A DNA stretch of 64,000 bases from Rhodanobacter sp. L36 (GTDB lineage Bacteria; Pseudomonadota; Gammaproteobacteria; Xanthomonadales; Rhodanobacteraceae): assembly GCF_009765755.1 (NCBI RefSeq), contig NZ_LMUV01000006.1, forward strand, positions 101,172 through 165,171. Reading direction: 5' to 3'. A model generated the notes under the pieces. It saw only the letters and a program-made list of their open reading frames with translations. It was not told where the DNA came from and made no database searches. Position 1 is the stretch's first letter; every line of letters starts with the position of its first letter. A program made the position numbers and the translations under genes. Positions 35,711 through 41,627 of this stretch are shown in pieces.

Positions 35711-35776
35711 ATCCCGGCCGGGCCGGGATGAATCTTCTTCGAAGTGCTCTCCCCGCGCTGGGCACCGCGGGGAGAG
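35711..35776 (-). terminator. Two successive hairpins downstream of the MetJ/H1-like gene
   Basis: Reading the minus strand, an 11-bp stem (35747-35757 with 35766-35776) comes first, then a seven-bp GC stem (35711-35717 with 35723-35729) followed by TTCTTCGTTT. Together they probably end the transcript of the gene stopping at 35821. Neither has a long T-run. Confidence 0.5.
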
Positions 35777-35820: not shown

Positions 35821-36324
35821 TTACTTCTTGGCTTTTGCGGTCTTGGTGGCTTTCATCACCTTGGCCGGTGCAGCTTTCTTGGCGGCGGCCTTCTTCGGCG
35901 CAGCCTTCTTGGCGACTTTCTTCACCGCAGCTTTCTTTGCGGTTTTCTTGGCGGCGGCCTTCTTCGGCGCAGCCTTCTTCACGGCTTTCTTGGCTGCCGG
36001 CTTCTTGGCGGCAACCTTCTTCACGGTGGATTTCTTGGCGGCCTTCTTGGCGGCCGGTTTCTTTGCAGCGGATTTCTTGGCAGTGGCCATAGTTCGTCTC
36101 AGCTCCTCATCAGTTGGCAGTGGTTGCCCAGTAAAAGCGTGCAGGAACGCTTCGACCAACAAGTCGCTGTTGGTAGCGTGCCGTAAATTGTTCACTTGAC
36201 GGTGCGTGCGCAAATCGGAAAGCCGCCGCAAGACATGCAGCGGAATCGAGACAGTGATCTTGCGAACTGCGTTCGCCTTTTCACCGTGCTCAACGTACGG
36301 CTTGATGAATTTTGCTGTCGCCAT
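35821..36324 (-). CDS. MetJ-like ribbon-helix-helix domain fused to a histone-H1-like Lys/Ala tail
   Basis: 167 residues in two parts. Residues 1-77 read as Met[18 protein letters not shown], then [12 protein letters not shown] and [13 protein letters not shown]. The beta-strand Lys and Thr that contact DNA in MetJ (K22, T24 here) and the helix with Glu58 and Phe64 are kept, while the MetJ Arg42 position is His41. At Met79 the MetJ sequence stops and an H1-like tail of AAKK/APKK units runs to the end. The normal MetJ C-terminal third is missing. The start at 36324 has GGGGAAAG; Met79 (36090-36088) could serve as an internal start. Probably a nucleoid-associated or specialised DNA-binding protein; its role is unknown. 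Confidence 0.85.
35830..36087 (-). repeat. Lys/Ala-coding low-complexity repeat tract
   Basis: The tract encodes about 85 residues made almost only of Lys, Ala, Pro, Val and Thr in 3-6 residue units such as AAKKPAAKK and APKKAAAKK. At DNA level near-identical blocks recur (for example GCAGCCTTCTTCGGCGC-like units), so length variation by slippage or recombination is expected between strains. Confidence 0.8.
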
Positions 36325-36352: not shown

Positions 36353-36381
36353 AAGCTATCCCCGAAGATTTCCGGTGTCAA
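36353..36381 (-). promoter_or_regulatory. Predicted sigma-70 promoter of the MetJ/H1-like gene
   Basis: On the minus strand a consensus -35 TTGACA (36376-36381) and -10 TAGCTT (36353-36358) are separated by 17 bases. The start codon lies 28 bases beyond the -10 box. Confidence 0.6.
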
Positions 36382-36404: not shown

Positions 36405-36477
36405 CGGCTCCGACAACCCCGAAACCCTCAAAGCCCGATGCAGCAACGGCTCGCGGCCAATACGGCAATATTTAATT

Positions 36478-36497
36478 GGACGTCCATACGTCCATAC
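36478..36497. promoter_or_regulatory. Tandem octamer repeat resembling MetJ met-boxes
   Basis: The octamer CGTCCATA occurs twice head-to-tail (36481-36488 and 36489-36496). In the met-box register the two units are GGACGTCC and ATACGTCC, each six of eight matches to the known MetJ consensus AGACGTCT. It lies about 155 bases upstream of the MetJ-like start. MetJ dimers bind tandem eight-bp sites, so this is a candidate autoregulatory operator. Confidence 0.35.
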
Positions 36498-37068: not shown

Positions 37069-37464
37069 TCAGTGGTCTTCGTTTTCCACCAGCTCTTCGT
37101 ACTCGTTCGCGTCCATCAGTTCGTCGAGCTCGCCGCGATCGCTCGGACGCACCAGGAAGATCCAGCCCTCTCCGAAGGCGTCCTCGTTGATGGTTTCCGG
37201 CTTGTCGTTGAGCTGCTCGTTGATCTCCACCACTTCACCGGAAATCGGCGAGTAGATATCGGAGGCGGCCTTCACCGACTCCACCACGGCTGCACCGGTG
37301 CCTGCCTTCACGGCGGAACCGACTTCGGGCAGCTCGACATAGACCAGATCGCCCAGTTGCTCCTGCGCGTGGTGGGAAATGCCCACACGAACCAGACCGT
37401 CATCTTCGATGCGGGCCCACTCGTGGGACTTGAGGAATTTCAGATCGCCAGGAATCTCGCTCAT
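37069..37464 (-). CDS. gcvH: Glycine cleavage system H protein
   Basis: The lipoylated carrier of the glycine cleavage complex, shuttling the aminomethyl group between the P, T and L proteins. 131 residues, normal length. The lipoylation site is Lys65 in [19 protein letters not shown]. The N-terminus ([19 protein letters not shown]) is characteristic. It lies 91 bases downstream of gcvT in the same direction; gcvP is not in this window. A terminator follows. Confidence 0.97.
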
Positions 37465-37555
37465 GATCGGGTCCAGTAGTTGGTTTTAGTCAGCTTGCGA
37501 TCGGTGATTCTATCTGCATCGCACGGTGCGCAAAACGTGTCATGGATGGCAACGC

Positions 37556-38656
37556 TCAGATGCCGTCGCAAGGTTTGCCATCGCGCACGAACGGGTACTT
37601 CACCATCCGCACGGGCACTTCCCGGCCGCGGATGTCGACGCGGACGTCGCCGGGTTCGCCGGCAGGAATTCGCGCAAAGGCTACCGCCTTGTTGAGGGTG
37701 GGCGAAAAACTGCCGGAGAGAATTTCGCCCTGGCCGTTCGCGGTCAGCACTTTCTGGCCGTGGCGCAGCACGCCTTTATCGTCGAGCACCAGACCGACCA
37801 TCACGCGTTTCACGCCGGCCACCTTCTGGGCTTCGAGCGCATCGCGACCGATGAACCTGCGACCTTCGTCGAGCGTGATAGTCCAGCCGAGATTCGCCTC
37901 CCAAGGCGAAACGTCCTCGTCCATGTCCTGACCGTAGAGGTTCATGCCCGCTTCGAGCCGCAGGGTGTCGCGCGCACCGAGGCCGGCCGGCGCGACACCG
38001 GCAGCGGCCAATGCATCCCACAACGCGACTGCGTGATCGTTCGGCACGATGATCTCGAATCCGTCTTCACCGGTGTAGCCCGTGCGTGCGATGAAAAGAG
38101 GCATGCCATGCGGACCCTGCGCCGCGGCGGCAGCGAACTTGCCGAGCTTCTCGATGCGCGCACGATCGACCTCGTGCAGCAGGCCCAGCACCTTCGCGCG
38201 TGCCTGCGGACCCTGCACCGCGATCATCGCGAACTCCGGGCGCTCGATCACCTGCACATCGAACGCGGCGGCCTGCTGTTCGATCCATGCCAGATCCTTC
38301 GCGCGTGTCGCCGCGTTCACCACCAAACGGAAATGTGCTTCGTCGAAAAAATAGACGATGAGATCGTCGATCACGCCGCCGCCCTCGTTCAACATGCACG
38401 AGTAAAGCGCCTTGCCGGTGATCTTGAGCTTGTCGACACTGTTGGCCAGCAGGTGGCGCAGGAATTCCCGCGTGCGTGCGCCATGCAGATCGATCACCGT
38501 CATGTGCGACACGTCGAACATGCCGGCGTCGTTGCGCACGGCGTGGTGTTCGTCGATCTGCGAGCCGTAGCTGATCGGCATGTCCCAGCCACCGAAATCC
38601 ACCATGCGTGCTCCGAGCGCGCGATGGGTGGCATTGAGCACGGTCTTGTCGGTCAT
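37556..38656 (-). CDS. gcvT: Glycine cleavage system T protein (aminomethyltransferase)
   Basis: Transfers the methylene group from H-protein-bound aminomethyl to tetrahydrofolate, releasing ammonia. 366 residues, the typical size. Family features include [42 protein letters not shown] (folate-binding region) and [17 protein letters not shown]. The start is the ATG at 38656 ([18 protein letters not shown]); upstream in-frame sequence lacks an RBS. It probably forms an operon with gcvH. No glycine riboswitch could be recognised in the 102-base gap upstream. Confidence 0.96.
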
Positions 38657-38758
38657 TGCGGCGCAGCCTGATGAAGTGAGTTGCGCATTATCGCCGCGGA
38701 CCCATGGCAATCCAAGCGCGGGCGGAACGGCGGCAACGATGTTTGCGCGACGCGCAAC

Positions 38759-40624
38759 TCAGATTGCCGGAATCCGCTCCGCGACCTGCTCCGCCATCTG
38801 CTCGGCACGCCGCCCGGCCGTGACCAGATGAATGTCCGGTGCCTGCGGCCGCTCGTAAGGCGCATCGATGCCGGTGAAGTTCCGGATCAGGCCGGCGCGC
38901 GCCTTGCGGTAGAGGCCCTTCGCATCGCGCGCCTCGCATTCCTCGACGGTGGCATCGACGAATACTTCGAAGAATTCGCCCGGCTCGAACAGCTCCCTCG
39001 CGGCGCGGCGTTCGCTTTCATAAGGAGAAATGGCGCTCACCAGCACGATCAGGCCCGCATCGACCATCAGATGCGCGACTTCGGCAATGCGGCGGATGTT
39101 CTCCACGCGATCCTCGGGCGTGAAGCCGAGATTCTTGTTGATGCCGTGGCGCACATTGTCGCCATCCAGCAGATAGGTATGGAAACCCAACGCATGCAGG
39201 CGACGTTCGACCAGGTTGGCGATCGTCGATTTGCCGGCGCCCGACAGGCCGGTGAACCACAGGCAGAGTGGACGCTGATTCTTGCTGGCGCCGCGCACGC
39301 TCTTGTCAATGTCGAGGTGTTGCCAATGCACATTGGCGGAGCGGTCCAGCGCGAAATCCAGCATGCCGCAAGCCACCGTGGCGTGGTTCTCGCGATCGAC
39401 GAGGATGAAACCACCCAGCGTCCGGTTGACGTTATAGGGCTCGAAGGCGATGTCGGCGTCCAGACCCAGCGTGCAATAACCGACTTCGTTGAGTTCCAGG
39501 TGTCGCGTCGCAAGCTTGGCCTGCGTGTTCACATCCACCTTGTGCTTGATCGACATCACGCGCGCGTTGACGGTGCGCGTGCCGACCTTCAACCAGTAAG
39601 TGCGATTGGGCATCAATGGAACGTCGCCCATCCACAGCAGATGGCAGGTGAACTGATCGGCCACCGGTGCTGCATGCAGAGCATCGGCGATGACATCGCC
39701 ACGCGTCACATCGATCTCCCGATCCAGGCAAAGCGTTACTGCCTGGCCGATCTCCGCCGCGTCCACATCGCCCTCGGGCGACACCACGCGTTCGACCCGC
39801 GCACGCTGGAAGCCGGGCTGCACGACAATCTCGTCACCGCGTGCCACGCGCCCACCGCAAATCGTGCCGGCGTATCCGCGGAAAGAATGATCCGGCCGAT
39901 TGACCCATTGCACGGGCATGCGGAAGTCCGATGCGCCCGCAACCGCAATGTCGATCGATTCCAGCAGCTCCAGCAATGATGGCCCGCGATACCAGGGCAT
40001 GCGCGACGAGCGCGCGCCGACATTGTCGCCGCTCAATGCGCAAACCGGCAGGTAGTGGACTTGTTCGATGCCGAGCTCAGGCGCCAGCTCGCGATATTGC
40101 GTGACGATCTCGTCGTAAACCGTTTCGTCGTAACCGACCAGATCCATCTTGTTGATCGCCAGCACGACCTGGCGAATACCCAGCAACCCGCAGATAAAAC
40201 TGTGCCGGCGCGTCTGCGTGAGCAGGCCCTTGCGCGCATCGACCAGCACGACGGCGAGCTCCGCGTTCGACGCGCCCGTGGCCATGTTCCGCGTGTACTG
40301 CTCGTGCCCCGGGCAATCGGCGACGATGAAACTACGGCGCACGGTATGGAAGTAGCGATACGCCACGTCGATGGTGATGCCTTGCTGCCGCTCCGCGTCC
40401 AGCCCGTCGGTGAGCAGCGAGAAATCCAGCACGTCGCCCGCGTCGGCATGCAGGCGACGGCTGTCGCCGGCGAGCGCGGCGAGTTGATCGTCCGGCACCA
40501 CGCCGGCGTCGTAGAGCAGCCGGCCGAGCAACGTGCTCTTGCCGTCGTCCACGCTGCCGCAGGTGATGAAACGCAGCAGGCCCTTGGCCACAACGACGCC
40601 GGATTTTTCGGAGGACGTCGTCAT
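38759..40624 (-). CDS. cysNC: Bifunctional sulfate adenylyltransferase subunit 1 / adenylylsulfate kinase
   Basis: A fused CysN-CysC enzyme of assimilatory sulfate activation, 621 residues. The CysN GTPase part (1 to about 430) has [18 protein letters not shown] (P-loop), [18 protein letters not shown] and LAINKMDLV; it drives ATP sulfurylase by GTP hydrolysis. The CysC part (about 440-621) has [20 protein letters not shown] and [16 protein letters not shown] and phosphorylates APS to PAPS. The start overlaps the cysD stop by one base (TGATG), giving a coupled cysD-cysNC unit. Confidence 0.97.
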
Positions 40625-41541
40625 CAGAAATACCCTTCCTGTTTCTTGCGCTCCATCGAGGCCGACGGATCCTGGTCGATCACCCGGCCCTGCCGTTCGG
40701 AGCTGCGGGACGTGGCCATCTCCTCGATGATCTTGTCGAGCGTATCCGCGGAGGATTCAACCGCACCCGTCAGCGGATAGCAGCCGAGCGTGCGAAAACG
40801 CACCTCGCGCATCTGCGCCATCTCGCCTTCGCGCAACGCATAACGATCATCGTCGACCATGATCAGCGCGCCGTCGCGTTCGACCACCGGACGCGGCTTT
40901 GCGAAATACAGTGGCACCACCGGAATGTTTTCGCGCTGGATGTAAAGCCACACGTCGAGCTCGGTCCAGTTCGACAACGGAAACACCCGCACGCTTTCCC
41001 CCTTGCTGACGTGCGTGTTGTAGGTGTGCCAGAACTCGGGGCGTTGGTTTCGCGGATCCCATCGGTGCTGCGCATTGCGAAACGAGAAGATGCGTTCCTT
41101 CGCGCGGGATTTCTCCTCGTCGCGTCGTGCGCCACCGATCGCCGCATCGAACGCGTACTTGTCCAGCGCCTGCTTCAACGCCGCAGTCTTCATCACGTCG
41201 GTATGCACGGTCGCACCGTGCGTCAACGGCGACACGCCCTGACGCAAACCTTCCTCATTGATATGCACCAGAACGTCCAGATCGCCGGCCGCGGCTACCT
41301 GTTCGCGGAAGGCGATCATCTCGCGGAATTTCCAGGTCGTATCCACATGCAGCAAGGGCATCGGCGGGCGCGCCGGATAAAACGCCTTGCGCAGCAGATG
41401 CAGAAGTACGGATGAATCCTTGCCGATCGAATACAGCATCACCGGACGCTGGAACGACGCCGCCACTTCGCGAAAGATGAAGATGCTCTCGGCTTCGAGA
41501 TCATCGAGATGGGAGCGTGCTGGAAGCAAGGAAGTCGTCAT
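40624..41541 (-). CDS. cysD: Sulfate adenylyltransferase subunit 2
   Basis: The catalytic ATP-sulfurylase subunit that makes APS from ATP and sulfate with CysN. 305 residues (usual about 302). The PP-loop motif [18 protein letters not shown], the substrate region [13 protein letters not shown] and the [15 protein letters not shown] loop are all present. The start at 41541 ([18 protein letters not shown]) matches family N-termini. It overlaps cysNC by one base. It sits 86 bases downstream of the amidase gene on the same strand, and no cysH, cysI or cysJ is nearby. Confidence 0.97.
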
Positions 41542-41627
41542 GCCATCGGATTTCGAAAGTGGTTCGCCACGACAACGCACAGCGTCGTCGCCGGACATTG
41601 GAACTGGGGCGCCATCTTACGCGATGC

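Follow-up and report, generated by a model that had tools for sequence, protein, structure and literature searches.

The 64,000-nucleotide stretch of Rhodanobacter sp. L36 DNA analysed here (the window) carries at positions 35821-36324 a single open minus-strand reading frame in which a MetJ-type domain and a Lys/Ala-rich, histone H1-like tail are encoded in one frame (Table 1). We refer to the gene as metJ-H1 and to its product as MetJ-H1. The initial annotation had placed the locus at the correct coordinates and omitted the strand; the plus-strand frame that begins at 35821 is not open and contains an internal stop. Upstream of metJ-H1 the window holds minus-strand frames (37069-41598) that read, by eye, as gcvH, gcvT, cysNC and cysD. 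A gcvH-like motif occurs near metJ-H1 in 24 of the 33 loci of the Rhodanobacteraceae (hereafter the family) that are long enough to judge, the window being searched whole.

Table 1. Features of the metJ-H1 locus in window coordinates
Feature	Position	Strand	Basis
Candidate operator, tandem pair of met boxes, reading GGACGTCC ATACGTCC on the plus strand	36478..36493	.	Pattern search
-35 hexamer TTGACA	36376..36381	(-)	Upstream in 76/76 family genes, 75 at -55 to -63
-10 hexamer TAGCTT, 17-nt spacer	36353..36358	(-)	Conserved; too far from TATAAT for the consensus promoter scan
Coding sequence, MetJ-H1 fusion protein, 167 aa	35824..36324	(-)	ATG at 36324, stop codon 35821-35823
MetJ ribbon-helix-helix domain, residues 5-77	36094..36312	(-)	Profile and structure matches, residue conservation
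44-nt block frozen at synonymous sites	36095..36138	(-)	Identical in 33/76 family genes
GAGGAG, Shine-Dalgarno-like, 12 nt before internal ATG	36103..36108	(-)	Conservation, anti-Shine-Dalgarno energy
Internal in-frame ATG, Met79	36088..36090	(-)	ATG in 74/75 genes; in L041 the corresponding codon is GTG
Lys/Ala-rich H1-like tail, residues 79-167; also putative free nested product	35824..36090	(-)	Composition
Terminator-like hairpin, 3' of the gene	35711..35729	(-)	Consensus match alone; the region has 6 of these against 2.3 expected

Profile searches place the N-terminal domain in the MetJ family, as the initial annotation had proposed. Residues 5-89 match the Pfam MetJ profile PF01340 (E=2.5e-35; 120.8 bits, cut-off 25), residues 4-93 match the NCBIfam MetJ equivalog NF003622 (PRK05264.1; 125.9 bits, cut-off 110), both curated cut-offs being exceeded, and residues 4-89 match the solved E. 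coli Met repressor (E=6.4e-31). This is the sole MetJ match in its own genome. Family membership still stands despite the missing helix C region, which participates in the response of MetJ to SAM (PMC2775130) and is absent both from MetJ-H1 and from 11 tail-less MetJ proteins of the order that were examined. The AlphaFold model of MetJ-H1 (pLDDT 50) is uninformative and was left unused. Removal of non-family loci, the window copy and identical proteins leaves 76 distinct family proteins, own included; K23, T25, R40, R43, E59, H63, F65 and L70 are identical in all of them, K23 and T25 presumably serving as DNA-contact or core residues, and position 37, a threonine in MetJ, is serine in 75. R40, R43 and E59 are DNA-contact or core residues of MetJ (PMC2775130). 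According to a simulation paper, SAM strongly contacts Glu39 and Arg42 of MetJ (PMC2775130), and both contacts are lost in this genus, where MetJ-H1 has Leu39 and His42. The histidine at MetJ position 42 and the retention of Glu59 and Phe65 had been read correctly from the outset; the replacement of Glu39 by leucine had been overlooked. Both E39 and R42 are kept in 61 of the 76 family proteins, Leu39 occurs in 14, each without Arg42, and a single protein combines E39 with H42. A tree of the domain gives a minimum of 6 (E39) and 7 (R42) changes, which is not reliable, 1 of its 63 inner branches being starred. Control of the protein by SAM may be looser in this genus.

The tail is readable in 75 of the 76 distinct proteins, L019 being cut by a contig end. 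In all 75, own included, lysine, alanine and arginine make up a fraction of at least 0.65 (median 0.76), with lengths from 35 to 310 aa (median 99) and group median net charges of +35 to +49. Like the bacterial histone H1-like proteins it is Lys/Ala-rich and variable in length; unlike them it is joined to a specific DNA-binding domain and stays below the profile cut-offs, with a weak likeness to Hc2 (PF07382; 17.2 bits, cut-off 40) and to the H1-like model NF038053 (20.0 bits, cut-off 80). Another Lys/Ala-rich stretch (G000 C4:1650416-1650901), weakly similar to H1-like proteins at 25.8 bits, lies within an open frame of 263 codons elsewhere in the same genome. The fusion of MetJ to an H1-like tail is confirmed, and a sequencing error or frameshift at residues 77-79, which would have separated two genes, is rejected because the identical in-frame joint recurs in 75 distinct family proteins. 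It is very improbable that MetJ-H1 is an ordinary MetJ with a functionless low-complexity extension: tail sequence and length do drift, but a tail of the same composition is present in all 75 readable distinct proteins from 26 genera, and the frozen element that precedes it (see below) points to selection on what follows.

A MetJ match was obtained in 146 of 147 genomes drawn from the Rhodanobacteraceae, representing 26 of 26 genera; three of these genomes give MetJ as two pieces, and the loci examined comprise at least one per genus (26 genera) rather than every genome. A scan of named genomes confirmed at least three loci, among them one from Dyella choica, Dyella being a member of the family, and one from a Rhodanobacter metagenome-assembled genome. 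Beyond the family the taxonomy rests on coded genomes: in a sample of 121 genomes of the order, 34 have MetJ, 19 of them Rhodanobacteraceae and 15 belonging to families f9 and f12, and none of the 11 examined among these 15 carries a Lys/Ala tail. The combination of MetJ and tail, whose taxonomic range the initial annotation had proposed to map, was observed in 26 genera of the Rhodanobacteraceae and in none of the 11 relatives examined in the order. A class-wide search returned 2 of 229 genomes, own included, with a sampling that was even by family and is poorly informative on MetJ-rich orders. Two f12 proteins end right at the junction (PTDEELAKAEE* and PTDEELARPE*), and nine f9 proteins end 14-20 residues past PTDEEL/DL/NL. 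Because the f9 and f12 MetJ proteins are short and tail-less, loss of the E. coli-type C-terminal part probably preceded acquisition of the tail; the earlier description of a tail that replaces the C-terminal third was right about the presence of the tail and probably wrong about the replacement.

Synonymous sites in the last ~14 codons of the MetJ part are frozen across genera, a feature that is new to this analysis and had escaped the initial annotation. Over 75 compared genes the observed/expected synonymous difference is 0.25 in the 14 block columns versus 0.82 in 58 columns of these genes outside it (p=9e-7, Mann-Whitney test over columns), and the lowest 13-codon window outside the block reaches 0.67. 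Within the block the codons ACT (75/75), GGG (74/75), CCA (74/75) and GAG (74/74 and 75/75 at two Glu columns) are nearly fixed, and AGA accounts for 68/68 Arg codons at one column as against 14/436 elsewhere in the domain, while the Asp and Leu codons of PTDEEL stay variable. The non-identical 44-mers carry 1-5 differences, and L041 carries 10. With up to 3 mismatches allowed, a 38-nt part of the block has a single occurrence in each of 19 family genomes and none in the 102 other genomes of the order; in 12 MetJ genes without a tail, 12-20 of the 44 positions are different, with amino-acid replacements among the differences. An in-frame ATG (74/75) follows the end of the block after 1 or 4 nt. 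GAGGAG and this ATG are each kept in 74 of 75 genes, with a variable residue alongside (T 47, D 15, R 10, I 1, A 1). Computed on the 20 nt before each start, the mean anti-Shine-Dalgarno energy is -10.3 kcal/mol at the internal ATG, -6.0 at the annotated start and -4.0 at random in-frame positions, 1.5% of which reach -10.3; the internal site has the better fit in 72 of 74 genes. The simplest reading of the frozen block is an internal start that would additionally yield the tail alone; two proteins, the full MetJ-H1 and a free H1-like tail from Met79, are probably made from the one gene.

The block is longer than a ribosome-binding site requires, since ~30 nt extend upstream of the Shine-Dalgarno-like motif, and the spacing between GAGGAG and ATG, 12 nt in 64 of 74 genes and 9 nt in 10, is mostly long. 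These two features would fit a methionine repressor with a tail and no internal start, in which Met79 is a leftover of the fusion and the block serves another role at the RNA or DNA level, such as a small-RNA target, an RNA-protein site, ribosome pausing between domain and tail, or mRNA processing. We consider this unlikely: the invariant features are precisely those of a start site, GAGGAG and ATG at 74/75 each, with a variable residue alongside, and the only strongly decayed block (L041; all others have at most 5 differences) has GACGAG and GTG in their place. Several RNA elements were considered as well. Rfam returned nothing above threshold on the block. A type II hammerhead ribozyme scored 16.4 of 37 bits (E 3.8 and 0.44) and was rejected, and the GAA sought after the block for the hammerhead core is, by eye, missing in many relatives. 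A hairpin that sequesters the Shine-Dalgarno motif was likewise rejected, its inner stem being broken without compensation in the L013/L024/L048 group and the fold being no better than shuffles. A check for a fourU-like thermometer recovered GCUUUU/AGGAGC pairing in the commonest predicted fold (20/75) at a fold z-score of 0.04, with no covariation visible by eye in this hairpin. By eye, the other reading frames through the block share no common start codon.

Tandem 8-bp repeats are the known operator form of MetJ (PMC4239095), and such repeats recur 5' of metJ-H1. Two head-to-tail octamers, AGACGTCT twice with at least 11 of 16 positions matching, are present in 64 of 76 family genes and in 3.3% of dinucleotide shuffles; at the stricter level of at least 12 of 16 the figures are 51 of 76 versus 0.45%. 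All 64 pairs sit 166-191 nt before the start codon. A consensus scan gave no promoter within the metJ-H1 gene, a scan that also misses the conserved TTGACA/TAGCTT pair; TAGCTT, TAATTT, TAGTTT or TAACTT follows TTGACA after 17 nt in 75 family genes. In 62 of the 64 genes 89-110 nt separate the end of the boxes from the conserved -35 hexamer, a distance too great for simple occlusion of that promoter; another promoter, looping or spreading would be needed. A terminator-like hairpin (36406-36426, minus strand) lies between the boxes and the conserved promoter, and a short leader or a small RNA could conceivably begin close to the boxes.

When up to one mismatch is allowed, the box-pair pattern gives 63 forward and 53 reverse matches in the own genome, compared to 7 and 7 for the reversed pattern; forward and reverse matches are mostly the same places because the pattern is near-palindromic. 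Five genomes searched with spacers of 0-10 nt contain 73 exact pairs, of which 64 are spacer-free, 6 have 8 nt and 3 have 2, 6 or 7 nt (counted by hand, overlapping pairs within one array separately). According to tblastn, box arrays adjoin metX-metB in 5/5 of these genomes, aspartokinase in 4/5, a TonB receptor in 3/5 and metE in 2/5. One-mismatch sites in the own genome are located at aspartokinase, the recurrent TonB receptor and mtnB, between cysK and cysB, and before glutamate synthase, and in G146 an exact pair lies between cysB and a sirohaem synthase gene. Targeting to met-box-like sites, one of two outcomes envisaged by the initial annotation, is supported computationally by boxes at the own gene and at methionine and sulfur genes. 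The other outcome, a MetJ fold reused for dimerisation alone, is not supported, as box arrays recur at met genes. Adjacent TonB-dependent receptor genes at G000 C8:78731-81507 (L163, L105) each have met boxes upstream, and their best match is the B12-receptor model, below its cut-off.

A SAM riboswitch occurs exactly once in each of 12 family genomes searched and lies at metX-metB in all five genomes of the spacer search. A box array is found 36-48 nt 5' of it in 8 of the 12 (G000, G039, G146, G045, G023, G012, G008 and G024), and in the other four (G014, G006, G017 and G004) an exact-pattern pair at the riboswitch is absent. At metX-metB the distance is 36-38 nt in all five genomes (L129, L139, L150, L154 and L156); in the own genome the riboswitch spans G000 C11:91729-91844 and the boxes 91880-91903 (L129), and the other four loci are arranged likewise. 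Apparently metX-metB is under double control in these five genomes, by protein and by RNA. Boxes accompany the metX riboswitch in genomes with a contact-less protein and in one that keeps the SAM contacts (G023, L031). At metE the predicted met boxes directly abut a cobalamin riboswitch (L106 1501-1726; L131 1303-1528), roughly 400 nt before the metE profile match in both genomes.

Not every match has this character. Many of the 57 own-genome box loci inspected fall inside genes, edd carries an in-gene match in four genomes, one conserved pair sits in a convergent intergenic region, and many box matches are not credible operators. AGAAGTATAAACGTCT is present in two copies (L167 and L168; G000 C4:15419 and C4:23217), one of them 5' of a pro-kumamolisin-type gene, which has no evident link to methionine. 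In three genomes (L102, L137, L143) GGACGTCCAGACGTCC is conserved where two genes converge, and it resembles a terminator more than an operator. Among seven family genomes scanned for exact pairs, G014 has the fewest (0) and G004 the most (6 forward, 5 reverse), and the reversed-pattern control exceeds the pattern in five of the seven (G008, G012, G014, G006, G017) and about equals it in G045 (five-genome scan). The reversed control is an uneven yardstick because f2 genomes give 1-10 such matches per strand; exact box pairs number 0 in five f2 genomes and one f10 genome, all without MetJ. Among genomes with tail-less MetJ, G157 (f12) has 7 exact pairs per strand and G185 (f9) has 0, with 0 and 0 for the reversed control. 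Regulon size clearly varies among the family genomes.

Dozens of box-pair matches, many of them not at methionine genes, tails of 35-310 residues with their high charge, and the loss of both SAM contacts in this genus could alternatively point to a nucleoid-associated protein, in which the MetJ domain mainly dimerises and seeds binding at met boxes, the tail widely coats and compacts DNA and methionine control is secondary. A nucleoid role of MetJ-H1 is possible, but as the principal function it appears to us rather improbable: box arrays recur at the classical targets and in eight genomes keep a constant spacing to the metX SAM riboswitch, E39 and R42 are kept in 61/76 proteins, and the core residues are invariant.

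On balance we favour, with somewhat more confidence than doubt, the reading of MetJ-H1 as a met-box repressor of methionine and sulfur genes that is equipped with an H1-like tail and contains a nested start for the free tail. The interpretation offered initially is partly borne out, and should shift to a methionine repressor with an H1-like tail and probably a nested start. MetJ-H1 is the only MetJ orthologue in a genome of the Rhodanobacteraceae type; its C terminus is fused to an H1-like cationic tail, and it most likely binds tandem met boxes. The flexible, polycationic tail would add sequence-independent DNA affinity; it may raise occupancy, help neighbouring dimers to array or bridge DNA, and it may relax the need for SAM by providing tail charge in place of the sulfonium. 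At the joint the same mRNA would contain an internal ribosome-binding site with its start codon, from which the tail alone is probably also made as a small H1-like protein. We infer as the likely history a two-gene operon in which the end of a short metJ housed the ribosome-binding site of the H1-like gene behind it; the metJ stop codon was then lost and the second start kept. Computation establishes the fusion, its conservation, the box arrays and the frozen start region; binding, repression, the function of the tail, internal initiation and this history are inferred. A further-reaching version, which we advance tentatively and judge not quite an even prospect, is that one gene encodes two chromatin-type proteins, an H1-armed methionine repressor and the free H1-like arm; the element may be regulated and set their ratio, and tail charge may replace that of SAM where the contacts are lost, the riboswitch keeping the SAM response of metX-metB.

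MetJ-H1 resembles the E. coli MetJ (PF01340, NF003622) in its ribbon-helix-helix domain, its DNA-contact residues, its tandem 8-bp met boxes and its predicted target types (methionine, sulfur, BtuB-like). It differs from MetJ in that the MetJ part ends near residue 77 without a helix C region and continues into the tail, in the loss of E39/R42 in this genus, and in the nested start signal. The tail-less MetJ proteins of f9 and f12 have a similarly shortened domain, with box pairs in G157, but lack the tail and differ in the block region at 12-17 of 44 positions. SamR/MetR regulation of methionine genes in Xanthomonadales concerns the same order and overlapping target genes (PMC4239095). Leyn et al. 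2014, who described SamR, list no MetJ regulon for four Xanthomonadales genomes in their Table 1, and Rhodanobacter, Dyella and Luteibacter are absent from the main text (PMC4239095). In the proteome of Rhodanobacter R12 a putative MetJ is reported to go up with nitrate and four methionine-biosynthesis enzymes to go down (PMC12146267). Our search of the open-licence literature found neither a MetJ with an H1-like tail nor experiments on MetJ-H1.

In the textbook repressor MetJ, SAM tunes the affinity through its charge. A permanent polycation on MetJ constitutes a natural test of this electrostatic model, because family proteins that keep the SAM contacts can be set against those that have lost them. 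Should the nested start prove real, a specific regulator and a nucleoid-like protein would arise from one gene, with the tail-less relatives as controls. In addition, a MetJ regulon would be added to an order whose four genomes had none in the 2014 survey (PMC4239095).
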